DNA of 64,000 nt, from NCBI GenBank assembly GCA_025465535.1, contig JAODMY010000098.1, forward strand, positions 1 through 64,000. The letters run 5' to 3'. This document shows, in pieces, positions 4,937 through 24,269 of the stretch. Position 1 is the first letter of the stretch; each line of letters begins with the position of its first letter. The DNA comes from Glaciihabitans sp. (GTDB lineage: Bacteria > Actinomycetota > Actinomycetes > Actinomycetales > Microbacteriaceae). The notes beneath the pieces are model-generated. The model did no database searches. It worked only from the letters and a program-made list of their open reading frames with translations, and was not told the DNA's origin. A program made the translations under genes and the position numbers.

Positions 4937-5484
4937 CGACCCTCGAACAGTCGGCTGGTGAGGTCTTTCGCACTGTCGTTGTTCAACGAATCCGGCAGGA
5001 AGATCACGCGGTAGACGATGGGCGCGACGAGTCCGTCGATCACCTCGTCCACGGTCAGCGGGCTCGACGCACCGTAGCGTTCGACGAGCATTCCGGCCTC
5101 GGCGCGACGGTTGCGCAGGCAGTCCGACTGGGTGTCGCCGGCGGATGCCGCACCGCCTCGCAGGATGGCCGCGTTCGTCGGGTTGCTGTAGTGCTCGATG
5201 ATTTCGCGGGCCCACTCGGTGAGGTCCGACCTGAGGTCACCGGTCTCGGGAATGGGCCGCTTGGGATCGAGCCGATAGGTAGCGATGTCGTTGATCATGG
5301 TCTGCAAGTCGCCCCAGCGACGGTAGACGCTCGTCGGGTTGACGCCGGCGCGCTCGGCAACCATGGGAATAGTTACCCGCTCGCGACCCTTCTCCTTGAC
5401 GAGCTCTTCGACCGCGTTCCTCACCGAGGTCAGGACCGCTGCGCTGCGGCCACCGGGGCGCTTCTGGACTGGGCTCGTGCTCAT
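4933..5484 (-). CDS. TetR/AcrR-family transcriptional regulator
   Basis: A 183-residue protein with an N-terminal helix-turn-helix (about residues 12-58: VTIPMVAERAGVNPTSVYRRWGD is the recognition unit) and a C-terminal ligand domain rich in helices. It is divergent from the MFS gene starting at 5575. The 90-bp gap holds two matching GCAA-N6-TTGC palindromes, so it most likely represses itself and the MFS-NTF2 operon, with derepression by a transported compound. Ligand unknown. Confidence 0.9.
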   Translation of the reverse strand: MSTSPVQKRPGGRSAAVLTSVRNAVEELVKEKGRERVTIPMVAERAGVNPTSVYRRWGDLQTMINDIATYRLDPKRPIPETGDLRSDLTEWAREIIEHYSNPTNAAILRGGAASAGDTQSDCLRNRRAEAGMLVERYGASSPLTVDEVIDGLVAPIVYRVIFLPDSLNNDSAKDLTSRLFEGR

Positions 5485-5494
5485 GTAGTTATGC

Positions 5495-5517
5495 TAACGC
5501 AATTCGAGTTGCATTTA
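5495..5517. promoter_or_regulatory. TetR operator box 1
   Basis: TAAC-GCAA-TTCGAG-TTGC-ATTTA. The core palindrome GCAA-N6-TTGC is at 5499-5512, immediately upstream of the regulator start. It shares TAACGCAA...TTGC-TTTA context with box 2. Confidence 0.65.
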
Positions 5518-5542
5518 CGGAAAGATCGGTATAGCTTTCTGA

Positions 5543-5564
5543 TAACGCAAATATTATTGCTTTA
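5543..5564. promoter_or_regulatory. TetR operator box 2
   Basis: TAAC-GCAA-ATATTA-TTGC-TTTA. The core palindrome is at 5547-5560, centred 48 bp from box 1. It is directly followed by the AGGAGAG ribosome site (5564-5570) of the MFS gene. Confidence 0.65.
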
Positions 5565-5574
5565 GGAGAGTCGC

Positions 5575-6813
5575 ATGAGCGCCGCAACGAACACCTGCAC
5601 GGCACCGATTCCGGTGATTCGTACCGTGCGGGCTCGCCGCGTCCTGCCGCCCACCGCAGCGTTTGTCGGCGCGGCTCTTGGGTTCGCTGGAATATACCTT
5701 GCGTCCGGGGCACCGACTTCCCTCCTCGTCCAGTACCAGGCCGCGTGGGGCTTTCCGGAATGGATGCTGACGGTTGCGTTCGCTGCCTACGCGTTCGGCC
5801 TGGTCGCGGCGCTGCTGGTTACCGGCTCACTCTCCGACATCCTCGGCCGGCGTCCGGTGCTCATCGCCTCACTCGCGGGGGAACTCGCGGCCATGTTGCT
5901 CTTCGTCTTCGCGCCGAACATCGGCTGGGTCATCGCAGCTCGGATCGTCCAGGGCGTCGCCACCGGTGCGGCGACGAGCGCGTTTACCGCGACGCTCGGC
6001 GAGCTCGCTCCCGAGCGGCACAAGAAGCTCGCGGCAATCATCGGGGGAGCGGCTCCCGCGGGCGGCCTTGGACTCGGCGCGCTGCTGAGTGGGATCGCGG
6101 TGCAGTTCAGCTCGTCGGCAAGCGTGATCGTGTTCGTGTCGCTGGCCGTGATCATGGTGCTCGCCGGGCTGGTCGCCGTCTTCTCGCAGGAGACCGTGAG
6201 CCGTCGCGGTGGGGCACTCCGTTCGCTCGTGCCGCGGGTGGTCGTTCCCCGCAACGCACGCCGAGAGTTCGGCTCGGTCATCCCGGTTCTGCTGGCCTCG
6301 TGGATGCTTGCCGCACTGTTCCTCGGTCTTGTCCCCACGATCATCCGCACCATCTTCGGCATTGACAGCGGACTAGTCAGCGGGGTGACCGTCTTTCTCG
6401 AGCCCGGTGCCGCCGCGCTCGCGGGCTTTGTGCTCGGCCGCTTCACCTCGCGTAGCACCGTGGTCGTGGGCGGGGTGTCGGTTTTGGTCGGGACGGCCGT
6501 CATCGTGGGCGCCATCGCGCTCCATTTGTTGCCGCTGGTGTGGGTAGGCGCCGTCATCGGCGGGGTCGGTTTCGGTGCCTCGTTCTCCGGATCGATGCGC
6601 ATCCTCGCTCCGCTCGCGCAGCCGACCGAGCGGGCCGGGCTGTTCGCGGCAGTGTTTCTGGTCGCCTACCTTTCGTTCGGGGTGCCGGCCATCGTCGCCG
6701 GGCAACTCGTCGGGCCGGTCGGACTCCTCGCCACCGTGCTCGGCTACGGCGTGGTCATCCTGCTGATCGCCGTCGTCGCGATCCTCGCGCAGCTTCGCCT
6801 CGCCCGTTCCTGA
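5575..6813 (+). CDS. MFS transporter (12-helix efflux type)
   Basis: A 412-residue major facilitator. The loop 2-3 signature is GSLSDILGRRPVLI near residues 84-97, and the helix-4 RIVQG motif follows near 123-127. About twelve hydrophobic segments span the whole length. AGGAGAG precedes the ATG. It is divergent from and probably repressed by the TetR protein, and cotranscribed with the NTF2-like gene 63 bases downstream. The likely role is export of a small toxic compound; the substrate is unknown. Confidence 0.9.
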   Translation: MSAATNTCTAPIPVIRTVRARRVLPPTAAFVGAALGFAGIYLASGAPTSLLVQYQAAWGFPEWMLTVAFAAYAFGLVAALLVTGSLSDILGRRPVLIASLAGELAAMLLFVFAPNIGWVIAARIVQGVATGAATSAFTATLGELAPERHKKLAAIIGGAAPAGGLGLGALLSGIAVQFSSSASVIVFVSLAVIMVLAGLVAVFSQETVSRRGGALRSLVPRVVVPRNARREFGSVIPVLLASWMLAALFLGLVPTIIRTIFGIDSGLVSGVTVFLEPGAAALAGFVLGRFTSRSTVVVGGVSVLVGTAVIVGAIALHLLPLVWVGAVIGGVGFGASFSGSMRILAPLAQPTERAGLFAAVFLVAYLSFGVPAIVAGQLVGPVGLLATVLGYGVVILLIAVVAILAQLRLARS

Positions 6814-7212: not shown

Positions 7213-7737
7213 GAGGCCGAGTTCATCGAGGATGTGTCGAACGACTGTCGGTGCCTCGGGGCCGATGCCGACCCGGATCGCGGGCTCGTCGGCCCCGGGC
7301 TCCTCGAGTGCCGCGAATTGGCTGTCCAGCAGCGACGGCGGCATGAAATGGCCCGTCCGGTGGGCGAGTTGAGCGGCGATCTCGGCGCGGGTTCCCACGA
7401 GGTAGACGAATTCGACGCCGTTGCCCCGACGGTTGATGAGGTCACGGTACGAGCGCTTGAGGGCCGAGCAGGTGATGATGCCGCTTCCGCCGGAATCGAG
7501 GCGTGCCTCCACCCAGTCGGCGACCTTCTCGAGCCAGGGCAGCCGGTCGGCGTCATCGAGCGGATGTCCGGCCGCCATCTTCGCGACGTTGGCCGCCGGA
7601 TGCAGTGAGTCGCCCTCCTCGAACGGCCAGCCGAGACGGTCGGACAGCAGCTGCGCGATCGTCGACTTGCCGCATCCCGAAACGCCCATGATGACGAGGA
7701 CAACCGGAGCAACTGCGGGGTGATCGGTGTGGGGCAC
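7189..7737 (-). CDS. gntK: Gluconokinase
   Basis: A 182-residue P-loop kinase that phosphorylates gluconate to 6-phosphogluconate with ATP. Walker A GVSGCGKST is near residues 18-26, the acidic FEEGDSLHP segment and the HPLDDADRLPWL motif are characteristic of GntK, followed by CSALKRSYRD. Length is typical. The GTG start is placed by a leaderless promoter: the minus-strand hexamer GATAAT (7744-7749) is 6 nt upstream. It is back to back with the MFS gene at 7770, with only 32 bp between the start codons. Confidence 0.92.
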   Translation of the reverse strand: MPHTDHPAVAPVVLVIMGVSGCGKSTIAQLLSDRLGWPFEEGDSLHPAANVAKMAAGHPLDDADRLPWLEKVADWVEARLDSGGSGIITCSALKRSYRDLINRRGNGVEFVYLVGTRAEIAAQLAHRTGHFMPPSLLDSQFAALEEPGADEPAIRVGIGPEAPTVVRHILDELGLSGSGARL

Positions 7738-9183: not shown

Positions 9184-9735
9184 CTAGAACTTGCGCTGGA
9201 ACGGCAGGGGCGCCCGCATCCTGAGCAGCAGGATGAGCGGAACGAGAACGTACGCCCCGTTGTAGAGCAGGAACATTCCGGGATTGGGTGTGCGGTCGGC
9301 GGCCGGTCCGAAGAACTCGTCGCCGAAAATCGGGATGGCCGTCAGGCTGATGATCATCGTCGCGTAGATGACCGCGAAGATCTGGATGCGGTTCCAGCCC
9401 TTCGCGAGCGAGATGATCAGGATCACGTAGAACGGCAGGTAGAGGAACGCCGAGGTTCCCGAGATGAAGCGAAGCCACACCTGCTCACTCTGGTACAGCG
9501 GGTCGTAGTTCGATGCGTAGGTGTAATTCCACTGCGCGAGCAAATTGGTCGAGTGTGCGACCTGCGGGATGCCGAGACCTTCGACCGAGTCGCTGATGAT
9601 GCACGTGATGATGAACACGCTGAACACCACGATGAAGAAGATGTCGACCGGTCGTTTGCGTAGCGGAAGGTTCGTCGATTCGGCTGCGGTTATTGCTCGG
9701 GCCGATGTCGAGTTGCTCTTTGCGCTAGGGACCAC
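9184..9735 (-). CDS. EXPERA-like (TMEM97/EBP-type) membrane protein
   Basis: A 183-residue protein with four membrane helices (about residues 28-50, 95-115, 120-142, 157-173). The pattern RPVDIFFIVVF...DSVEG, then YLPFYVILIISL and YATMIISL, with acidic and aromatic residues inside helices, resembles the EXPERA fold of sterol isomerase/TMEM97 relatives. The GTG start at 9735 has a leaderless promoter: minus-strand TAAAGT (9742-9747) with 6 nt between. The function in bacteria is unknown. The family match is moderately sure. Confidence 0.6.
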   Translation of the reverse strand: MVPSAKSNSTSARAITAAESTNLPLRKRPVDIFFIVVFSVFIITCIISDSVEGLGIPQVAHSTNLLAQWNYTYASNYDPLYQSEQVWLRFISGTSAFLYLPFYVILIISLAKGWNRIQIFAVIYATMIISLTAIPIFGDEFFGPAADRTPNPGMFLLYNGAYVLVPLILLLRMRAPLPFQRKF

Positions 9736-9771: not shown

Positions 9772-10581
9772 TCAGCGCTTGTGCGCGACGATTTCGAGCA
9801 CCGCGTCGTGTAGCACGCCGTTGGTCGCGAGCGCCGATTCGTGCCAGGGACCCTCGTCGCCGTCGACGGACGTGAAGCGCCCGCCCGCCTCCTCGATGAT
9901 CGGGATGAGGGCGGCCATGTCCCACGGTTTAAGGTCGAATTCGCCGGCGATGTCGATCGCGCCCTCGGCCAGCAGCATGTAGGCCCAGAGCTCGCCGACC
10001 GCGCGTGAGCGCCAGGTTGCGCGGGTGAGTGCGATGAGCTCGTCGAGTCGCCCCGCTTCATCCCAGCCCGGAAGGTTGTTGTAGTTGATGGATGCGTCAG
10101 CCAGGTTGGCGATGCCGCTCACGGCGAGCTTGACGGCAGCCTCGCCATTTGCGCCAGCGCCCGTGGTCTCGGTCCAGGCGCCGTGGCCCTTCGCGGCCCA
10201 CCAGCGCTTGCCGAGGGCGGGGGCGCTGACCACGCCGACGATCGGCACGCCATCGATCACAAGCGAGAGGAGTGTTCCCCAGATGGGAACGCCGCGGAGG
10301 AAGTTGGCTGTGCCATCGATCGGGTCGATGATCCACTGGCGTCCCGGTGTGCGCTCGCCGCCGTACTCCTCGCCGAGGACGGTGTCGTGCGGTCGCGACG
10401 CCTCGATTCGTTCCCGGATGAGGCGCTCGACGGCCTGGTCGGCATCCGTCACTGGCGTGCGATCGGGCTTCGTCGTCACGACGAGATCGAGCGCCCGATA
10501 GCGATCGAGCGAGATGAGGTCGGCATCGGCGGCGATCGCGAGGGCGACACTCAGGTCGTCTGCTGGGGTGAATTCTGGCAC
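9772..10581 (-). CDS. hisN: Histidinol-phosphatase (inositol-monophosphatase fold)
   Basis: A 269-residue Mg-dependent phosphatase. Metal-binding motifs are GEEYGG near residue 70 and IDPIDGTANF near 85-94, with the C-terminal metal site EFDLKPWDMAAL near 215. This subfamily in actinobacteria dephosphorylates histidinol-phosphate in histidine synthesis; inositol-1-phosphatase activity cannot be excluded. The GTG start is supported by minus-strand TAGGGT (10588-10593), 6 nt upstream. Confidence 0.85.
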   Translation of the reverse strand: MPEFTPADDLSVALAIAADADLISLDRYRALDLVVTTKPDRTPVTDADQAVERLIRERIEASRPHDTVLGEEYGGERTPGRQWIIDPIDGTANFLRGVPIWGTLLSLVIDGVPIVGVVSAPALGKRWWAAKGHGAWTETTGAGANGEAAVKLAVSGIANLADASINYNNLPGWDEAGRLDELIALTRATWRSRAVGELWAYMLLAEGAIDIAGEFDLKPWDMAALIPIIEEAGGRFTSVDGDEGPWHESALATNGVLHDAVLEIVAHKR

Positions 10582-10684
10582 GTCACAACCCTACCGATCG
10601 GCGGTTAACGCAGGGTGTCCAGCGTGCTTCCGTCGTCGGAGCCGCCGTCGCCCGGCCGCCGGTCAGCTGACGGCAGCGGGGCGG

Positions 10685-11425
10685 CTAGCGCTCGCTGAGC
10701 GTTTGCAGGACCGGGTAGTCGCTGTAATGCAGGGTGATGGCCTCGGTGACCGCGGCCATGTCTTTGTTGTGCACGGCGTCGGCAATCTTGAGGTGGACCG
10801 AAAGCGAATATGCGGCGCTCTCGTTCGTCTCTTTCGCGTGCGGGATCCACTGGTCGGTTGGATGGCTCTTGGTGAGGGTCGTGGTCAGTTCGAGCAGCGC
10901 GGGCGAATGTGCTGCGCTCGCGATGCTGAGGTGGAAGACCAGCGTCGCGGCGAGGTAACCGGTGAAGTCACCCTCTTCGAGGCGAGACTGCATGTCGAGG
11001 ACTGAAGCATCGATTCTGAGCAGGTCTGCCGGCGTGGCTCGATTGATGGCGAGACAGGCACAGGCGATTTCGAGGCCTTGCCGCACCTCAAGCCCATCGG
11101 CCTCGCTAAGCCCCGCCACGACGGATGCCGCCTCAAGGGACCTCGACATCGACTTGTTGATGCGAACGAAGCTTCCCTCGCTCAGCCGCGTGTCGATGTG
11201 CCCGGAAAGGTGCAGCGAGCGCAGGGCTTCGCGCACCACGCCTCGACTGACGCCGAATTCGATGGCGAAGCTGCGCTCGGAGGGAAGTTTGTCTCCGATT
11301 TGCCATTCTCCGCGTGCGAGCCTCTCGAGAATGAGCTCGACGATTCGATCAGATTTGCTGCCGGTGTCCCGCACGCCCACTCCAGGCAGGGCCGGAGCTG
11401 ATGTCCCGTATTCCCGATCCGACAC
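10685..11425 (-). CDS. FadR-type GntR-family regulator (FCD domain)
   Basis: A 246-residue regulator. The winged helix at about residues 20-88 carries the GntR signature (GDKLPSERSFAIEFGVSRGVVREALRSL), and an all-helical FCD ligand domain follows (LEVRQGLEIACACLA, then HLSIASAAHSP with a metal-type histidine). The GTG at 11425 is chosen because GGGGAGAG lies upstream; the longer frame to 11566 has no such site. It is divergent from the ABC-hydrolase-amidase operon and has a 13-bp palindrome 22 bases upstream of its own start. It therefore probably represses itself and the operon, with a carboxylic acid as inducer (typical of FCD domains). Confidence 0.88.
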   Translation of the reverse strand: MSDREYGTSAPALPGVGVRDTGSKSDRIVELILERLARGEWQIGDKLPSERSFAIEFGVSRGVVREALRSLHLSGHIDTRLSEGSFVRINKSMSRSLEAASVVAGLSEADGLEVRQGLEIACACLAINRATPADLLRIDASVLDMQSRLEEGDFTGYLAATLVFHLSIASAAHSPALLELTTTLTKSHPTDQWIPHAKETNESAAYSLSVHLKIADAVHNKDMAAVTEAITLHYSDYPVLQTLSER

Positions 11426-11446
11426 TTTGTACTCTCCCCAATCCAG

Positions 11447-11459
11447 CTGGTAGGACCAG
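11447..11459. promoter_or_regulatory. FadR-type operator, regulator side
   Basis: CTGGTAGGACCAG is a perfect palindrome around AGG and fits the T-GT-N3-AC-A operator class of FadR-type GntR proteins. It lies 22 bp upstream of the regulator start, suiting autorepression. Confidence 0.65.
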
Positions 11460-11624
11460 CCTGACCAAGTCAAGCATAGCCATTTGCTCGCCTCAATTTC
11501 AACCGGAGCACCGCGACACACCGGTGATTGAGCCCGAAATTGGGCGGCCAAGGCGTCCGGCATCAATTCACACGATCGAAACAGTTCAGAAACTTAAGTG
11601 TCCAAAAATCCGCTTACGCTTTAG

Positions 11625-11656
11625 CATGGTAGGACCGGATGAACCGGTAGTACTGG
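11625..11656. promoter_or_regulatory. Two FadR-type operators, operon side
   Basis: ATGGTAGGACCGG (11625-11637) and CCGGTAGTACTGG (11644-11656) match the regulator-side operator in the GGTAG-AC core. They lie just downstream of the likely -10 element, where a bound repressor would block transcription. Confidence 0.6.
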
Positions 11657-11671
11657 ATCGGTGAGGGAGCC

Positions 11672-12688
11672 ATGGAATCTGCATCAGCAACTGCGACAAC
11701 GGTCGCAACTGCAACAGCGACACCGACAGCGCCGAGAGAATCGGCTATCCAGCACGTGCTTCGCCACTACGGGGTGGTGATCGTCTGGATCGTTCTCATC
11801 GTTTTCTTCTCCATCATCGAGCCGGGCACGTTCTTCACCGCATCCAACTTCTCGGCGATGTTCAGTACCCAGTCCTCGCTTCTAATCCTCGCGTTGTCGC
11901 TCGTCGTCACACTCAGCGTTGGGGAGATGGACCTTTCGGTCGCCTCGGTGCTCGGGCTTACCGCGACGGTGACGGCCGTGCTCAACACGCAGGGTGGCTG
12001 GCCACTACCGCTCGCGGTTCTCGTCGGACTCGCCTGTGGCCCGATCATCGGTCTCATCAACGCGTTCTTTGCCGTGGTTCTCGAGATCAACGCCCTGATC
12101 GTCACCCTCGGCACGGGAACACTGGTGCTCGGCATCTCAGAGTTCATTAGCAACTCTTCCGCCATCGGAGGCGTCGATCCCCACCTCACGACCGTGGTCC
12201 TGTTCCGATTCCTCGGCATGCCGATGAGCTTCTGGATCGCGATCGTCTTCGTGGCCGTGGTTTGGTACATCCAGCAGTTCACGACCCTTGGGCGCTCGAT
12301 GCTCTTCACCGGACAGAACCACACGGTTGCCCGGCTGGCGGGAATTCGAGTCAACTCGGTACGAGTCGGCGCCTACGCCTTCGGTGGCCTCATCGCGGCG
12401 GTGGCCGGCGAGATCGTGCTTGGGACATCCGGCGGCATCGAAGCGTCGTCCACCCAGACCCTTCTGCTGCCGGCGTTCGCCGCGGCCTTTCTCGGGGCGG
12501 CCGTCATCCAACCCGGACGCTTCAACGCCTGGGGAGCGGCCGTTGCCGTGTTCTTCCTCATTACGGGAATCACCGGACTCCAGCTGCTGGGGCTCGCGGC
12601 GTGGATCCAGGACGCGTTCTATGGCGCGGCGCTTGTCGGCGCGGTCACCGCGTCTCGCCTGATGGCCCGCTCGCAACGCGAGCGATAA
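11672..12688 (+). CDS. ABC transporter permease, ribose/RbsC type (CUT2)
   Basis: A 338-residue inner-membrane permease with about nine to ten helices. The segment LSLVVTLSVGEMDLSVASVLGL is the CUT2 permease signature (normally GGIDLSVG), and GRSMLFTGQNHTVARLAGIRV is the cytoplasmic coupling loop. It forms the channel for the substrate bound by the lipoprotein encoded next, driven by the double ATPase gene at 14021. First gene of the operon. Confidence 0.9.
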   Translation: MESASATATTVATATATPTAPRESAIQHVLRHYGVVIVWIVLIVFFSIIEPGTFFTASNFSAMFSTQSSLLILALSLVVTLSVGEMDLSVASVLGLTATVTAVLNTQGGWPLPLAVLVGLACGPIIGLINAFFAVVLEINALIVTLGTGTLVLGISEFISNSSAIGGVDPHLTTVVLFRFLGMPMSFWIAIVFVAVVWYIQQFTTLGRSMLFTGQNHTVARLAGIRVNSVRVGAYAFGGLIAAVAGEIVLGTSGGIEASSTQTLLLPAFAAAFLGAAVIQPGRFNAWGAAVAVFFLITGITGLQLLGLAAWIQDAFYGAALVGAVTASRLMARSQRER

Positions 12689-12702
12689 CAACCAATGATC
12701 CG

Positions 12703-12720
12703 GAGCACGCGCTCGTGCTC
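12703..12720 (+). promoter_or_regulatory. Intra-operon hairpin between permease and binding-protein genes
   Basis: GAGCACG (12703-12709), a CGCT loop, and CGTGCTC (12714-12720). A hairpin here could stabilise the binding-protein mRNA or partly terminate; both are common in ABC operons. Confidence 0.45.
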
Positions 12721-12794
12721 GCTCTTTCCGCGTAGACCGGACCTGGACCTCCAGGAAGTCGACAAACCAACAGTGATCTGAAAGGGAGAAACAC

Positions 12795-13964
12795 ATGCAC
12801 AACGCAATTCGCCCCAAACCCAGAGTCCTCGGTGTGCTCGCTCTCGCAGCGAGCGCGCTGATCCTGACCGCGTGCAGCGCGACAACGGCGGGTTCGTCCG
12901 TGAGCAGCACGAAGACCGCAACGTCGGCCGCGGACATCACCTACGCGAAGGCGAGGATCGCGCAGTACAGCAAGCTGCCCATGACCGTACCCGCCGGTAA
13001 GGCATTCGACGCCAGCGTCGCCAAGGGCAAGACCGTCTGGTATATCCCACTGGTTGCCACGGTTGCGCCGATCCAGGCGATCGCGACGAATCTGAAGCGC
13101 GCACTGGCAACCGAGGGCGTGAAGATGCAGGAGTGTGACGGCAAAGGCAGCGTCGTCGGCTGGAATGGCTGCATTCAGCAGGCCGTGGCCCAGAAGCCGG
13201 GAGCGATCGTGCTCGAGTCGATCAATCCCACCCTGGTGAGCGCGAGTATTGCCAGCGCGAAGGCCGCGGGAATCCCCGTGCTGATCGACACTGCGACCGA
13301 CTCGACGTCGCCCTGGTACTCGAACGCGAGTGCCCAGGTCAGCTACGACTACACCCTCGGATCCCAGCTCGTCGCCGACTGGATCATCGCGGACTCGAAG
13401 GGCAAGGCGAACGTGCTTGTCATCGACACGAACGACCTCTCGCTGAAGACAGCAGTGACCAAGAATGGCTACCAGGCCGAGTTCGCGAAGCACTGCTCCG
13501 GATGCACGGTGACGGTCGACTCCGTCACCTCGAGTGCGGACTGGGGAACCATGGTTACGCCGCTGGTCACCTCCGCTCTCACGAAGAACCCGGCGATCAA
13601 CTACGTGGTGGCCGAATACGACCCGGAGGTCCCCGGCACCATCACGGCGCTGGCCCAACTCGGAAAACAGGGTTCCGTCAAGGTGGCCGCGTTCAACGCG
13701 AGCCTCGAGCAGATGCAGGACCTTGCCCAGAAGAACTACGTGTCGGTTGAGGTGGGAAGCGATCAGAACTCTCTCGGTTGGGCCGAGGCCGACCAGGTCC
13801 TGCGAGTTCTCGCGGGCAAGCCGCCCGTACAGCGGGAGGCAACCGGAACGCGAGTCTTCACGTCGTCGAATATCGGGTCGGTGAGCCTGAACACCGGCAA
13901 GTTCTACTCCGGAGCGTGGTACGGCAACAGCTTTGAAGCGGCCTACAAGCAGCTTTGGGGCTGA
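12795..13964 (+). CDS. ABC transporter substrate-binding lipoprotein (periplasmic-binding type 1)
   Basis: A 389-residue exported lipoprotein. Signal: basic N-terminus, hydrophobic stretch, lipobox LTAC with the cysteine near residue 27. The mature part has the sugar-binding-type fold of CUT2 systems (VWYIPLVATVAPIQAIATNLKRAL, then KPGAIVLESINPTLVSASIASAKAAGIPVLIDT, and a C-terminal SVEVGSDQNSLGWAEADQVLRVL). AAAGGGAG precedes the ATG. It delivers substrate to the adjoining permease. The ligand is unknown; the operon enzymes suggest an ester, lactone or amide rather than a plain sugar. Confidence 0.9.
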   Translation: MHNAIRPKPRVLGVLALAASALILTACSATTAGSSVSSTKTATSAADITYAKARIAQYSKLPMTVPAGKAFDASVAKGKTVWYIPLVATVAPIQAIATNLKRALATEGVKMQECDGKGSVVGWNGCIQQAVAQKPGAIVLESINPTLVSASIASAKAAGIPVLIDTATDSTSPWYSNASAQVSYDYTLGSQLVADWIIADSKGKANVLVIDTNDLSLKTAVTKNGYQAEFAKHCSGCTVTVDSVTSSADWGTMVTPLVTSALTKNPAINYVVAEYDPEVPGTITALAQLGKQGSVKVAAFNASLEQMQDLAQKNYVSVEVGSDQNSLGWAEADQVLRVLAGKPPVQREATGTRVFTSSNIGSVSLNTGKFYSGAWYGNSFEAAYKQLWG

Positions 13965-14020
13965 GCGACGGCCATCGCGTAACGCTCGTAGCCGTCGAAG
14001 AAGTTAGGGAAGGGGACATC

Positions 14021-15571
14021 ATGACCGACCAGGGACATGCGGCGCTCACAATCCGCGGAGTTTCGAAGACCTTTAGCGGGAACACGGTGCTGTCCGACTG
14101 TGCGATCGAGGTCAGCTCCGGTGAGATTCACGGATTGCTCGGCCAGAACGGTTCGGGCAAGTCGACGCTGGTCAAGATCCTGAGCGGGTTTCAGGCACCG
14201 GATGCCGGAGGCGAGCTCCTGCTCAGCGGCGTGTCGGTCCCCTTCCCCGTCTCGGCTTCCGTGGTCAAGGATCACGGTCTGGCGTTCGTCCACCAGGACC
14301 TCGCACTGGTGGACGAACTCAGCGTCCTCGACAACCTGTTTGTCGGGCACTACGAGGCGAAGTTCGGACAGCCGATCCCGAGGCGTCGACTGCTCGAGAA
14401 AGCGCGGGCGGCGCTCGCCGAGTTCGGGATGGTCGTCGACCCGGAGAAACCGGTGTCCCGGCTAACCTCGGGGGACAAGGCGTGTCTCGCGATCGTTCGT
14501 GCCTTTCTCGACGTCGAGGGTCACGAGACCCCGACCCTCGTGCTGGACGAGCCGACCGCGCGCCTGGACCGGGCCGAGGTCGGTCGACTCTTCGCTGCGA
14601 TGCGCGCGGCGGCTGCGCGTGGCGCCGGGATCCTCTTCATCAGCCATCGGCTCGAAGAGATCCTCACCATCACCGACCGCGTGACGGCGCTCCGCGGCGG
14701 AGTGGTGACGGGCCGTGCGGCGACCGCGGACTGCGACGAAGGATCCCTCATCGAGTTGATCCTCGGAGAGCGGCTGGCCTCCGTTTATCCTCCGTCGGAT
14801 GTCGAGCCCGGCGGAGTGGTCCTTTCGGTTAGGGGCCTGCACGGCACAAGTGTTCGAGGTCTCGACTTCGACATCCGTGGTGGTGAGATCGTCGGGTTGA
14901 CCGGTCTTCCGGGCTCGGGAGCCGAGTCGGTGCCCTACCTGCTGATGGGGGAGGAGAAGGGCACGGCAGCGTCAGCTGAGATCGAGGGCGTCCCGTTCGA
15001 TGTTTCCACGTTGTCGGTGAAGAAACGCATAGAGCTCGGGATGGCTCTCGTGCCCGGCGATCGTGCGCAGCAGGGCGCGGCCCTCGGGTTGACGGTGTCT
15101 GAGAATGTGTCGCTCCTGCGGCTCCGCGACTTTAGCCGGTTCAAGTTCATCAGCCCCCGGCGCCAAGCCCAGTCCGTGGTGCAGATGCTGGAAAAGTACG
15201 ATGTCCGACCGCGGCGGCCCAACGCCGTGATGGGCGTGCTGAGCGGTGGCAACCAGCAGAAGGCCGTCATGGCCAAGTGGCTCGCCACGAACCCCAGACT
15301 GGTCATCCTGCACGAGCCGACGCAGGGTGTGGATGTCGGCGCGCGTCGCTTGATCTTCTCGATCATTGCCGATCTCAGCCGAGCCGGAGCAGCCGTCCTG
15401 CTGGTATCGGTCGAGCACGAAGACCTCGCGAGACTCGCCCACCGCGTTCTGGTCTTGCGCGATGGGCAGGTGGGCGCCGAAATCTCGGGCTCCGACCTGT
15501 CGAAAGAAAAAATCACAGAGGAATCCCTCATCTCTGTGCGGGACCCAGCCACTGAGCCGTCCCGCGTTTAG
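14021..15571 (+). CDS. ABC transporter double ATP-binding protein, RbsA type
   Basis: A 516-residue tandem ATPase. The first half has an intact Walker A (GQNGSGKST near 38) and Walker B (PTLVLDEPTARLD) but an unusual signature LTSGDKACLAIV in place of LSxGQ. The second half has the degenerate Walker A usual in this family (GLPGSGAES) and an orthodox LSGGNQQKAVMAKWL signature. The ATG at 14021 follows GGGAAGGGGAC; the open frame upstream overlaps the binding-protein gene and is not used. It powers the permease-binding protein pair. Confidence 0.9.
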   Translation: MTDQGHAALTIRGVSKTFSGNTVLSDCAIEVSSGEIHGLLGQNGSGKSTLVKILSGFQAPDAGGELLLSGVSVPFPVSASVVKDHGLAFVHQDLALVDELSVLDNLFVGHYEAKFGQPIPRRRLLEKARAALAEFGMVVDPEKPVSRLTSGDKACLAIVRAFLDVEGHETPTLVLDEPTARLDRAEVGRLFAAMRAAAARGAGILFISHRLEEILTITDRVTALRGGVVTGRAATADCDEGSLIELILGERLASVYPPSDVEPGGVVLSVRGLHGTSVRGLDFDIRGGEIVGLTGLPGSGAESVPYLLMGEEKGTAASAEIEGVPFDVSTLSVKKRIELGMALVPGDRAQQGAALGLTVSENVSLLRLRDFSRFKFISPRRQAQSVVQMLEKYDVRPRRPNAVMGVLSGGNQQKAVMAKWLATNPRLVILHEPTQGVDVGARRLIFSIIADLSRAGAAVLLVSVEHEDLARLAHRVLVLRDGQVGAEISGSDLSKEKITEESLISVRDPATEPSRV

Positions 15572-15595
15572 CCCGAACTCGAATCGAAGGAAACT

Positions 15596-16678
15596 ATGTC
15601 CAAGACTGTGACGACTATCACGGGTCTCATCGACCCGGATGATCTCGGGCGGACGCTGATGCACGAGCATGTCTTCGTGGACCTGACCTGCAACTTCGTG
15701 ATGCCGGCCGGCGTAGTCTCGAGGCGCTACGCGCACAAGCCGGTCGATCTCGAGATGCTTCACCTGCTGAAGCGGCGGCCATTCAGCGTCTCGCTCGATA
15801 ACCTCATCCTCGACGACGAACAGCTGGCCATCGAAGAACTTCGCTACTTCATGGCGGCGGGCGGTCGCACGATCGTGGACTGCACGGTACCCGGGATAGG
15901 GCGCGACCCCGAGCCGTTGCGGCGGGTGTCGCTCGCGACGGGAGCGCAGGTCGTCCTCGGCACCGGGTTTTACGTGGAGATGGCGCATCCGGACTGGCTG
16001 GAGAACGCCGGGGTTGACGAGCTTACCGAGACGTTCGTGCGGGAGATCCGCGTGGGCATCGACGGCACAGACATGCGCGCCGGGATCATCGGCGAGATCG
16101 GCATCAGCGGAGTTCCGAAGTCGTCGACCGACTACGCACGAACGGGCTACATCACGCCGACGGAGGAGAAGGTGCTGCGCGCAGCCGGGGCCGCCTCCGC
16201 GGAGACGGGTGCCGCGGTGACCCTCCACTTGGATGTTCGTGGCGAATCGGGGGAGGCCGTGATCGACATCCTGGAATCCGAGGGCGCGAGGCCCGAACGA
16301 ATCGTCGCGGGGCACCTGGACGCCGTCCCGAACCTCGACTATCACCGTCGTCTCGCCGACCGCGGGGTGTACGTCGAATACGATGCGTTCGGCCGCGAGT
16401 ACTACGCGGAGGAGTTGGGCAAAACGTTCGGCTCCGACGAGCGCCGCGCTTCGCTGATGAAGGCGCTGATCGACGACGGCTACGTCAACCAGCTGATCAT
16501 CTCGTCGGATATCTGCATGAAGATGGACCTTCGCGCGTTCGGTGGATCGGGTTACGACCACATCTTCACCGATTGCCCGCCGCTCTTCGAGTCGGTGGGG
16601 ATCGCCGCATCCGACATCACGACAATCCTCGAAGCCAACCCACGATCGGTTCTTGCGTTTGAGGCGGTGGCATCGTGA
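15596..16678 (+). CDS. Phosphotriesterase-family metal-dependent hydrolase
   Basis: A 360-residue amidohydrolase-fold enzyme. Metal ligands visible in order: HEH (LMHEHVF, near 21-25), a glutamate in GIIGEIGISG near 166 where many members have a carboxylated lysine, histidines in VTLHLDV and IVAGHLDAV, and the aspartate of SSDIC. The family hydrolyses lactones, esters or phosphotriesters; the physiological substrate here is unknown. AAGGAA precedes the ATG. Its stop overlaps the next gene by 4 bp, so the two are translationally coupled. Confidence 0.88.
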   Translation: MSKTVTTITGLIDPDDLGRTLMHEHVFVDLTCNFVMPAGVVSRRYAHKPVDLEMLHLLKRRPFSVSLDNLILDDEQLAIEELRYFMAAGGRTIVDCTVPGIGRDPEPLRRVSLATGAQVVLGTGFYVEMAHPDWLENAGVDELTETFVREIRVGIDGTDMRAGIIGEIGISGVPKSSTDYARTGYITPTEEKVLRAAGAASAETGAAVTLHLDVRGESGEAVIDILESEGARPERIVAGHLDAVPNLDYHRRLADRGVYVEYDAFGREYYAEELGKTFGSDERRASLMKALIDDGYVNQLIISSDICMKMDLRAFGGSGYDHIFTDCPPLFESVGIAASDITTILEANPRSVLAFEAVAS

Positions 16679-18039
16679 ATTCAGACCACGCGGCGCCTCT
16701 CACTATTTCGGGTATGGCCGCCAGCCTGGCCGCCGGTGAGGTGAGCGCAGAGGACCTCGCCGTCCACGCTCTCGAAACCATTGACCGTCTCAATCCGTCG
16801 GTCAATGCTTTCGTCCATGTTGATGCGGACGGTGCGCTCGCGGCAGCCAGAGCCGCAGACGAGCGCCGACAGGGGTCGCGACGGCTCGGCGCCCTCGACG
16901 GGATTCCCCTCGGTATCAAGGACAACATCTATGTCGCGGGGATGCCGGCGACGTGGGGAAGCAGGCGCTGGCTGGATTTCAGGCCAGATCAGGACGACCT
17001 GTCCGTCGAGCGACTACAACAGCAGGGAGGCGTAATCCTCGGCAAGACCAACACGCCTGAGCTCGCCATGAGCTTTTACACCGATAACGCCGTGTTCGGC
17101 CTCACGAGGAACCCACACAATCTTTCTCTCACACCGGGTGGGTCGAGCGGAGGCTCGGCCGCGGCAGTCGCATCGGGAATGGTGCCCTTCGCCCTCGGCA
17201 CGGATGCGGGTGGATCGATCAGGACGCCGGCGAGCCTGACCGGGCTGTTCGGGATGCGCCCGACCAATGGCCGGATTCCCCGAGCGTACGGTTTCGACCC
17301 GCTCGCCCTCGACTTCCAGGCCATCGGGCTGCTGACGAAGACGCTCGCGGATCTGCGGCTGGTGTACTCGGCGGTATCGGGCCCGGACCTGCGGGATCCG
17401 GCGTCGCTGACGGTTCCGTCCCCGGGTGCGCCCTCGCCGATCCGGGTTGGCTGGTTCTCTCGAGTCGGAGAGGAGCTTGTCGATGACGTCGTGGTCGAGC
17501 GGGTTCAGCGTGCCGCCCGCTGGCTCGCGGGATCAGGCTGCATCGTCGAGGAGATGGAAGCGCCGTACGACGTGCGGGGGGTGCGCGCTATTTGGGGGAC
17601 TCTCACCACGGTCGGGGTCGCGCTCGCCGTCGATGGGGCCCCCGATGCCGCGGAAACGCTGACCGACGCGATCCGCTCGATGGTGGACGCCGGGCGTGGC
17701 GTGTCCGCCGCCGACTATGGCAAGGCGTGGATCGACCTGCAGGCACTGCGCCGTGAGATCAGTCTGGCGTGGGGCGAACACGACGTGCTCCTGCTGCCAA
17801 CGAGCCCGACAGCAGCGTGGGCAGCGGACGAGTCGGCGCCGGCGACGATCGGTGGCCGGGATGCGGCACCGAACGCGGTGAGCACTTACACGACCTGGGT
17901 GAACGCGGCGGGGCTTCCCGCGCTCAACGTTCCGGCCGGGACGTATCCGGACGGACGCCCGATCGGCGTGCAGCTCGTCGCGCGCGCCGGCCAGGAGGAA
18001 TCGCTGTTCCAGGTTGCGGAGCTGCTGGTCGGGAACTGA
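16675..18039 (+). CDS. Amidase (amidase-signature family), operon-linked
   Basis: A 454-residue amidase-signature hydrolase. The Ser-cisSer-Lys triad is visible: lysine in GIPLGIKDN near 82, serine in the GGSSGGSA motif near 157, nucleophile serine in TDAGGSIRTPAS near 182. The GTG start overlaps the preceding TGA (GTGA), typical of a tightly coupled operon. It probably cleaves an amide in the imported compound or in the hydrolase product. Last gene of the FadR-controlled operon. Confidence 0.88.
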   Translation: MNSDHAAPLTISGMAASLAAGEVSAEDLAVHALETIDRLNPSVNAFVHVDADGALAAARAADERRQGSRRLGALDGIPLGIKDNIYVAGMPATWGSRRWLDFRPDQDDLSVERLQQQGGVILGKTNTPELAMSFYTDNAVFGLTRNPHNLSLTPGGSSGGSAAAVASGMVPFALGTDAGGSIRTPASLTGLFGMRPTNGRIPRAYGFDPLALDFQAIGLLTKTLADLRLVYSAVSGPDLRDPASLTVPSPGAPSPIRVGWFSRVGEELVDDVVVERVQRAARWLAGSGCIVEEMEAPYDVRGVRAIWGTLTTVGVALAVDGAPDAAETLTDAIRSMVDAGRGVSAADYGKAWIDLQALRREISLAWGEHDVLLLPTSPTAAWAADESAPATIGGRDAAPNAVSTYTTWVNAAGLPALNVPAGTYPDGRPIGVQLVARAGQEESLFQVAELLVGN

Positions 18040-21629: not shown

Positions 21630-24269
21630 CTAGCCACCGTTGCCGCCGCCACCGTTGCCGTCTCCTGTAGTACACGGGGTCGATTGACCGATGTTGACGA
21701 CGATCGGGACGCTCGATTTGGCGATCGTGCCAGCCGGCGGCGAGGTTGACACGGCGAAGGTGTCCTGGCTTGGGTCGGTGACTTCAGCGCAACCCCGGGA
21801 CACGATGGTGAACCCGGCCTTGGTCAGTATTGCCACGGCAGCCTGATAACTGTTCCCGCCGCTGCCGACCACGTTGGGCACGGTCATCAGCGCCCCATTG
21901 CTCGGGTAGATGGTGATCTGGTAGCCCCTCGAGAGCCGACTGCCAACGCCGGGGCTGACCCTGGCGACAGTGCCCTTACTGAGCGGGAACGACACCGAGC
22001 TTCCGACCCTGACCGTGAATCCGGATGCCTCGAGCATGCTGGTCGCTGCGGCCGTCGACTGTCCGATGACGTTCGGGACTTTCGTTCCCTTGCCGTTCAG
22101 GAGGCTTGAATTCGGGATCGGGAATGAAGCGGCGGGGTGATATGAGCGGTCGATGGCTTGCTCAATTGGTTTGAAAACAGCGTGTCGCAGGACCGACGCC
22201 TGCATCCCGCTGATGTAGGTCGCACGAAGCGGCACCTTTCCGGAGATGTTGCCGACCCAGACCGCCGTTGCGACCTTACTGTTTCCCCCAACAACCCAGC
22301 TCTGCAGGGAATCGTTGGTAGTACCGGTCTTGCCGAACACCGCAGTGCCGTCCCTCGGATTGGAGGCGGCACCGGTTCCCGCGCCGGCGGCCGGGCCTCC
22401 GCCGAGCGGTCCCTGCAGGGCATAGACGGCGGCGTCGGCGATATCGGTGGGGATGGCCTGGGCACACTGTTTCGGCTGTCCCGGAAGTTTCTCACCCGTG
22501 GGCGAGGTGATCGAGTCGATCGCGATCGGCGCACAGTACGTACCGTGGTTGCCAATCCCGGCGTACGCCGCGGCCATCGTCAGCGGCGAGACCAGGTTGA
22601 CGCCGAGCACGGATGCCGGGTTGGTCATCGGGTCGTCACCGACAACGCCATCGAACGGGTTGGTGTAGGTGGCGGCGGTGCGCACTCCGAGAGATTCGGC
22701 GACGTTGCGGATGTCGCAGAGGTTCAGCTGCTGCGCCATCGAGATGAACCCAGCGTTGATCGATGCCGCGGTTGCCGTCATGACGCTGACGGGGCCGCGA
22801 GTTTGCCCCACGTCATTTTGGAACTTGTACGCTCCGACGAACGGTCCATCGGGACAGGTGTTCGCAAAGGATGCCTGGTCGACAGTTCTCGCGTTTCCGT
22901 TCACGTACTCGTTGAGACCGTGACCGTTTTTCAGCCAGTCGATCAGCGTGAACGCCTTGTAGGTCGACCCACCCTGGAACCCGCCGGAGCCACCGTAGGC
23001 GTAATTGGTGTTGAGGTTGACGGCGGATGCCGTATTGCCGCCGCCCTTCGCGGTGTTGTTGAATTTCTTGTTCTCAGCCATTGTGATTATTCGGCCGGTC
23101 CCCATTTCGACGCTCGTGGAGGCGCCACCGAGGTTGAGTAGGGGGGTGTGGGCGGGGACGTATTGCGAAACGGTTCGCTGGGCCACACCCTGAAGGTCCA
23201 GGTTCAACGTCGTATAGATGTCGTAACCGCCGCGCGCCCAGTCCTGGGTGCGCTGGTTTTTGGTCGCGCCAAGCGAGGTGAGTTCCGGGATGAGCTTCGT
23301 CACGTAGTCGCAGAACCAGTTTGTATTGTGCATCGCGGCGATACACCCGTTGTTCGGCGAGATGTTCTTGACCGTCTTGGGGGATTCGACAACCGCTTTC
23401 CCTGCGGTGGCCTGCGCTTTGGTGATGTCACCGGCAGTTGCCATCGCATCAAGGATGTGGTCGCGTCGGGCGGTGTTTTGGGCGTACCCGGCGGCGCTGA
23501 TCGGAGCGCGCGAGGTGGGCTTCTGCACGATGGCCATGATCGTTGCGGACTGCACAATGTCCAGGTCCTTGGCGTGGATGCCGTAATACCGTTGGGCTGC
23601 GGACTCGATTCCGTAGGTCGTGCCGTTGAAGCCGGCAATGTTCAGATAGGCGAGAAGCACCTCGTTTTTCGTGTACTTCTTCTCCAGCGAGATCGCGAGT
23701 TTCATCTCCTTGAGCTTGCGAGAGAGCGTGGTTGCCTGTGCCGCAGCAATGGCAGCCTTCTGCGCCGCCGCCGTGGCCTCGGGCGTCGACTTCTGGATCT
23801 GCAACGCGTTCTGGATCAGGATGTTCTTCACCAGTTGCTGGGCGATGGTCGAGGCACCCTGGGTGCTGCCACCGCTGGCGTTGGAGATTACAGCGCGAAG
23901 CACGCCCGTCGGATCCACGCCGCCGTGGCTGTAGAAACGGCGATCCTCACCGTCGACGGCGGCATCCTTCGCATACTGCGAAACGTTGTCCCAGGTGACC
24001 TCCTGGCGGTTCTGATCGAAGATGGTCGCGATCTGGACTTCCTTGCCCTTGGACTTCGCATAGATCTTGTTTTGGGCGGCCTGGGTACCGATCTCGATGT
24101 AGGTCGGCAGATTGTTGAAAATATCGATACCGCTCTGCGCGGTCACCGAAGTGACAGCGATGACGGGAGCCAGCAGGGCAGTGACCAGAATTCCAGCGAA
24201 CACGCTAAACGCGAGAGTGCCAATGATCGCGGTGAGGACACCTCGGCGCGGGGGGTTTTTGGCGGACAT
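21630..24269 (-). CDS. Class A penicillin-binding protein with two PASTA domains
   Basis: An 879-residue bifunctional cell-wall synthase. One N-terminal membrane helix (about 12-40). The GT51 glycosyltransferase has the catalytic EDRRFYSHGG near 106 and GASTIAQQLVKN. The transpeptidase has SxxK as STYK near 435 and KTGTTND near 646. Two PASTA repeats (VPNVIGQ near 729, VPNVVGSG near 794) and a Gly-rich tail follow. It polymerises and cross-links peptidoglycan outside the membrane. Leaderless promoter: minus-strand TACCGT (24277-24282), 7 nt from the ATG. The PonA1/PonA2 assignment is left open. Confidence 0.93.
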   Translation of the reverse strand: MSAKNPPRRGVLTAIIGTLAFSVFAGILVTALLAPVIAVTSVTAQSGIDIFNNLPTYIEIGTQAAQNKIYAKSKGKEVQIATIFDQNRQEVTWDNVSQYAKDAAVDGEDRRFYSHGGVDPTGVLRAVISNASGGSTQGASTIAQQLVKNILIQNALQIQKSTPEATAAAQKAAIAAAQATTLSRKLKEMKLAISLEKKYTKNEVLLAYLNIAGFNGTTYGIESAAQRYYGIHAKDLDIVQSATIMAIVQKPTSRAPISAAGYAQNTARRDHILDAMATAGDITKAQATAGKAVVESPKTVKNISPNNGCIAAMHNTNWFCDYVTKLIPELTSLGATKNQRTQDWARGGYDIYTTLNLDLQGVAQRTVSQYVPAHTPLLNLGGASTSVEMGTGRIITMAENKKFNNTAKGGGNTASAVNLNTNYAYGGSGGFQGGSTYKAFTLIDWLKNGHGLNEYVNGNARTVDQASFANTCPDGPFVGAYKFQNDVGQTRGPVSVMTATAASINAGFISMAQQLNLCDIRNVAESLGVRTAATYTNPFDGVVGDDPMTNPASVLGVNLVSPLTMAAAYAGIGNHGTYCAPIAIDSITSPTGEKLPGQPKQCAQAIPTDIADAAVYALQGPLGGGPAAGAGTGAASNPRDGTAVFGKTGTTNDSLQSWVVGGNSKVATAVWVGNISGKVPLRATYISGMQASVLRHAVFKPIEQAIDRSYHPAASFPIPNSSLLNGKGTKVPNVIGQSTAAATSMLEASGFTVRVGSSVSFPLSKGTVARVSPGVGSRLSRGYQITIYPSNGALMTVPNVVGSGGNSYQAAVAILTKAGFTIVSRGCAEVTDPSQDTFAVSTSPPAGTIAKSSVPIVVNIGQSTPCTTGDGNGGGGNGG

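Follow-up and report, generated by a model that had tools for sequence, protein, structure and literature searches.

Three predicted operators of an adjacent GntR/FCD regulator upstream of a transporter/hydrolase operon in Glaciihabitans sp.

The 246-bp region between a gene for a GntR/FCD (FadR-type) regulator and a divergent transporter/phosphotriesterase-family/amidase operon of Glaciihabitans sp. contains three similar 13-mers, O1, O2 and O3 (Table 1), which are very probably operators of that adjacent regulator. It is predicted to be a local, autoregulated repressor, with O1 as its own operator and O2 and O3 as those of the operon. Bound as a dimer at O1, immediately past its own promoter, the regulator would prevent transcription of its own gene; bound at O2 and O3, sites that lie across the predicted operon start or immediately after it, it would block the operon. 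The ligand of the FCD domain, which would cause the release of DNA, would be a small molecule and probably either the substrate taken up or one of its breakdown products. The preliminary description had proposed both autorepression and operon repression; the type of regulator, the placement of the sites and the local regulon all agree with this proposal, and repression itself (as opposed to activation) is what we infer from the sequence, together with binding, start sites and effector.

Table 1. Features of the regulator–operon locus (positions in the window, i.e. the whole 64-kb stretch of DNA that was analysed)
Feature	Position	Strand	Sequence or remark
Operator O1 (predicted)	11447-11459		CTGGTAGGACCAG; perfect 5-bp arms flanking 3 bp
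Operator O2 (predicted)	11626-11638		ATGGTAGGACCGG; palindrome limited to GGT/ACC
Operator O3 (predicted)	11644-11656		CCGGTAGTACTGG; centre 18 bp from O2
GntR/FCD (FadR-type) regulator gene	10685-11425	-	GTG start at 11425, chosen by eye
Regulator promoter, probable	11473-11502	-	TTGAAA-18-TATGCT
Operon -10, probable	11615-11627	+	TACGCT (11615-11620) or TAGCAT (11622-11627)
12-codon mini-ORF	11626-11664	+	MVGPDEPVVLDR; ATG 11626 to TGA 11664; overlaps O2 and O3; function doubtful
ABC permease, sugar type	11672-12688	+	PF02653; best NCBIfam models AraH, GguB and LsrD, all under cut-off
Substrate-binding protein	12795-13964	+	Peripla_BP_4
ABC ATPase	14021-15571	+	Two ABC stretches, RbsA/AraG-like (Pfam/NCBIfam scan of 14024-15568)
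Phosphotriesterase-family hydrolase	15596-16678	+	PF02126, E 8.5e-65
Amidase-signature hydrolase	16675-18039	+	PF01425, E 2.1e-105

The three 13-mers, all of which share a GGTAG-AC core, lie exactly at the positions originally reported for them. Measured from centre to centre, O1 is 179 bp from O2 and 197 bp from O3, two values that replace the single spacing of about 185 bp given earlier, and the centres of O2 and O3 are 18 bp apart. The core GGTAGNAC occurs seven times in the window (2.0 expected), and three of these copies fall within the 246-bp region, where dinucleotide shuffles contain 0.015 on average and none of 20000 reached three; GGTAGNAC was derived from the sites after they had been seen, so that this test is post hoc. 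With the looser core GGTNNNAC, five matches were found in the region, a number equalled by 8 of 20000 shuffles, and with GTNNNAC six (189 of 5000 shuffles). A search that assumed no pattern found a largest family of three 13-mers at up to three mismatches, of four at up to four and of six at up to five, and these sizes were equalled by 43, 153 and 292 of 300 shuffles, respectively. Because shuffled sequence so often matches it even at three mismatches, the likeness of O1–O3 is by itself weak evidence. The sites rise above chance because they are conserved in a second genome and because O1 agrees exactly with the operator consensus of the FadR subfamily.

This published consensus, TKGT-N3-ACMA with GT and AC 3 nt apart (PMC4494728), is independent of the sites described here. 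O1 matches it in full and is its single occurrence in the window; O2 has one mismatch and O3 has three. When a spacer of either 2 or 3 nt is allowed, the consensus occurs twice in the window, at positions 777 and 11447. The regulator itself consists of an N-terminal GntR winged helix (PF00392, E 9.1e-15, 54.5 bits with a cut-off of 27) and a C-terminal FCD domain (PF07729, E 3.5e-18, 66.7 bits with a cut-off of 24.3), which bears out its earlier designation as FadR-type; by its domains and by O1, it is a member of the FadR subfamily. The best NCBIfam models were LldR and PdhR, and the best solved relatives include 9jpj, a pyruvate dehydrogenase complex repressor, and 2di3, which is Corynebacterium glutamicum LldR according to PMC4494728. 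Assignment to LldR or PdhR proper was rejected, as the scores of 75.2 and 71.1 bits compare with cut-offs of 311 and 330 bits. The PSER stretch in the regulator HTH aligns with PSER of 2di3, and by our own mapping the Arg of this P-x-E-R stretch would correspond to HTH position 28 of PMC4494728, where Arg is described as going together with G/C in the operator.

The second Glaciihabitans genome that carries this locus (G003) encodes a regulator ortholog with 89% identity and the five operon proteins with 80–95% identity. An alignment of the two intergenic regions, in which gap positions of the window were scored as misses, showed all 39 operator bases to be identical, as opposed to 144 of the 207 other positions (70%). 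Fisher's exact test gave p = 4e-6 with positions treated as independent, for one genome pair, the only two genomes in which the regulator was found. On the operon side, the identity forms an unbroken block of 32 bases that runs from the first base of O2 to one base past O3 and takes in the 5-bp spacer between them. The spacings in G003 are 180 bp for O1–O2, 198 bp for O1–O3 and 18 bp for O2–O3.

The regulator promoter in Table 1 was the only sigma-70-like match in 11400–11700 (9/12; 0.1 in shuffles). Both its hexamers and the distance between them are kept in G003, where the spacer sequence is partly changed and O1 sits 1 nt closer to the regulator -10 than in the window. The regulator transcript would start near 11466, which would place O1 at about +8 to +20. 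On the operon side, a consensus promoter scan of 11400–11700 detected no promoter and no good -35. Two -10 candidates were read by eye from the sequence and the alignment; TACGCT is identical in G003, and TAGCAT reads TACGAT there. Either candidate would place O2 at or over the operon start, and O3 just downstream. Such positions, at or downstream of probable promoters, are suited to repression by exclusion or road-block. The domains, the conservation and the genome-wide search support the original view, with a single site before the regulator gene and a pair where the operon would start. Several points count against a repressor with these operators: the three mismatches of O3 to the consensus, the limited palindrome of O2, the operon promoter lacking a good -35, the possibility that the identity of O2–O3 is partly of coding origin (see the mini-ORF below) and the fact that one of the 14 other FCD-domain regulators could bind O1–O3.

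The motif search proposed earlier as a means of defining the regulon returned a local one. The degenerate pattern YGGTAGKACYRG, which fits all three sites, has seven matches in the 3.1-Mb genome, three of which are the sites described here; the other four lie inside open frames of at least 231 codons, although in DNA this rich in GC the presence of an open frame says little about whether there is a gene. G003 has five matches, three of them at the ortholog and two in frames of at least 323 codons, and the four congeners in which no regulator was detected (at E 1e-20) have one, one, seven and five. All 20 non-operator matches were judged by stop-to-stop frames alone; in the genome studied, none beyond the three sites is likely to be intergenic. 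The control pattern for YGGTAGKACYRG had 37 matches in the genome. Likewise, TGGTAGNACCNG with up to one mismatch had 107 matches, compared with 429 for its backwards control (among the matches listed, the exact copies are O1, O2 and a third at 22316), and NNGGTAGTACYGG had five, as did its control. None of these three patterns was enriched genome-wide over its control, and a genome-wide regulon was rejected on these counts. As far as YGGTAGKACYRG can tell, the regulon does not appear to extend beyond the cassette.

The preliminary description also raised the possibility of looping, in which dimers on O1 and on O2/O3 would join over about 180 bp and tie the two promoters together. We consider this improbable. 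The O1–O2 distances of the two genomes do correspond to nearly whole numbers of turns (about 17.0 and 17.1 at 10.5 bp per turn), and AraR, from another GntR subfamily, uses cooperativity and looping, judging from a title cited in PMC4494728. However, O1–O3 corresponds to 18.8 turns, and the entire alignment has only three gap columns, so that a constant spacing offers no independent test. In addition, where a FadR-type divergon includes a regulator gene and has two sites, PMC4494728 mostly describes these as independent, with a common pair in 29 of 100 and separate sites in 71. The suggestion of looping therefore found no positive evidence.

It is slightly less likely still that the sites are genuine and are read by another FCD regulator, or that the adjacent regulator acts there as an activator. 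The genome encodes 15 FCD domains, i.e. 14 besides that of the adjacent regulator, and a CTGGT half-site (CTGGTTGACCAG) is found upstream of one of them. Against a different regulator stands the fact that the adjacent one and the sites share a divergent region and occur together in both genomes despite the changed location of the cassette, and the placement of the sites, level with the probable promoters or beyond them, is one suited to repression. Consensus sites were found in the 470 bp upstream of 2 of the 14 other FCD genes, compared with about 0.2 expected from the density in the window, the start codons of these genes not having been located. One case (L090) precedes the FCD gene at G000:C33:7310-7672 and is a pair, ATTGTCTAACAAT and ATTGTCAGACAAC, separated by 20 bp, which perhaps are that gene's own operators. 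Since this pair has a different half-site, TTGT, the FCD paralogs do not all recognise one and the same operator. The other case is CTGGTTGACCAG itself, which carries the O1 half-site with a 2-nt spacer (L091, upstream of the FCD gene at G000:C108:14928-15302); the C108 regulator is a possible cross-talk partner.

A further reading, which we regard as similarly unlikely, is that O2–O3 also forms part of a transcribed leader, either as a leaderless mini-ORF coupled to the permease gene or as a hairpin (ACCGG-AUGAA-CCGGU). The mini-ORF MVGPDEPVVLDR starts at the first base of O2, 5 nt past TACGCT, and ends with a TGA 7 bases before the permease ATG. The TACGCT -10 would place the transcript start at or near the ATG of the mini-ORF. 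The G003 frame encodes these 12 residues and then another three, and its TAA shares one base with the permease ATG. Ten of its codons are identical in the two genomes, and the next two differ silently (GAT/GAC and CGG/AGG), all but one base of these two codons lying outside the operators. These two substitutions alone favour a peptide, and only slightly. In the permease gene, third positions are 61% identical and only 3 of 315 windows of ten codons show no change. A run of ten identical codons is unusual for coding sequence at this locus, and the identity of O2–O3 therefore appears to reflect constraint at the DNA level. Moreover, O1 bears the same motif on the opposite transcript, and no ribosome-binding site is visible before the mini-ORF. 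An RNA leader was rejected because the fold energies of the hairpin are ordinary (z -1.0 and -0.2) and Rfam matches stay below the gathering score, the best being a sub-threshold mir-133 match (E 0.24). We regard it as unlikely that O2–O3 doubles as a leaderless leader ORF, with translation beginning at the very first transcribed base and coupling to the permease; if it did, one 32-bp stretch would be read by both repressor and ribosome. Finally, a chance likeness within GC-rich intergenic DNA, for which the equally similar trios in shuffled sequence speak, is very hard to reconcile with the complete conservation of the operator bases and with an exact family consensus adjoining a regulator of that same family.

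The predicted repressor and its operators appear to belong to a cassette. Homology to G003 extends from 10684 to 18031, limits that are close to the outer ends of the regulator and amidase genes. In the window, this cassette sits between rsgA and an IMPase gene; in G003 (L075 5264–12526), it lies several genes further on, beyond the counterparts of window positions 9796–10582 (IMPase), 9184–9672, 7236–7707 and 4993–6764, and rsgA and the IMPase gene adjoin each other. These two genes also adjoin in four other genus members, in which none of the operon genes was found within the 2.9–4.0 kb examined at rsgA/IMPase. The presence of the cassette at two different places in two genomes suggests that its arrival or relocation involved the whole unit, regulator and operators included, barring assembly error (the assembly studied has 3.10 Mb in 152 contigs, with the window on contig C96). 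Because homology ends near their outer limits even though the cassette lies elsewhere, the regulator, operators and operon evidently stay together.

Too few orthologs were found for the intergenic comparison to be extended beyond this genome pair. The regulator was detected in 2 of 6 Glaciihabitans genomes (E 1e-20) and, with its own genome included, in 2 of 398 genomes of the family (E 1e-45); a search of genome contigs returned one locus, on a contig of G003. The substrate-binding protein had matches in 11 of 396 genomes of the order (E 1e-30, own included). Eleven loci for this protein from the ten other genomes were inspected, and ten had no regulator match at E 1e-4; the remaining one had a distant match (31.6%). 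For the phosphotriesterase-family protein, 2 of 396 genomes of the phylum (E 1e-90) and 1 of 391 of the order (E 1e-75) had matches, own included in both. The gene thus seems rare, the sole further match, in the phylum sample, having 44% identity; in the region around it, the ATPase was matched weakly, and no counterpart of the regulator, permease, binding protein or amidase was detected. The order and phylum samples missed at least one carrier, since G003 has these genes and is absent among their matches. Plasmid relatives of the regulator (about 34%) and of the binding protein (about 29%) are too distant to decide the substrate. The best solved relatives of the phosphotriesterase-family protein, 3k2g and 9efa, are both named phosphotriesterase-related, and it is because of this name that N-acetyltaurine, as described for PTER (PMC11374699), was considered; as a substrate, it is a guess.

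The arrangement of regulator and operators is ordinary for the well-known GntR/FCD family. As in the FadR-subfamily divergons of Suvorova et al. (2015; PMC4494728), a GntR HTH is combined with an FCD domain and a TKGT-N3-ACMA palindrome, and the regulator gene is divergent from the operon with sites near each promoter; the locus resembles a separate-site divergon with a doubled operon site. In contrast to the one or two sites described in that survey, there are three here, the GGTAG core has an asymmetric centre, and O3 departs from the consensus. The regulator is similar to the FadR-type repressors LldR and PdhR in its best models and solved relatives; unlike them, it scores far under the equivalog cut-offs, and Pfam reveals no lactate or pyruvate dehydrogenase gene in the operon. 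Escherichia coli NanR, another FadR-subfamily member, also has more than one site at a single promoter, all placed beyond where the polymerase binds, and is reported to bind cooperatively through an N-terminal extension (PMC8012715). Its sites are described there as close GGTATA repeats, whereas those of the present operon are quasi-palindromes with centres 18 bp apart. Literature searches found no paper on Glaciihabitans together with GntR and none that combines GntR and FCD with this consensus as an exact string, and among the matches listed for FadR/operator and looping none names Glaciihabitans or the regulator in its title or the start of its abstract.

The locus provides a testable regulator–operator pair for an uncharacterised catabolic cassette that combines a transporter with a phosphotriesterase-family hydrolase and an amidase, and the substrate of this cassette could be sought by following when the regulator comes off O1.
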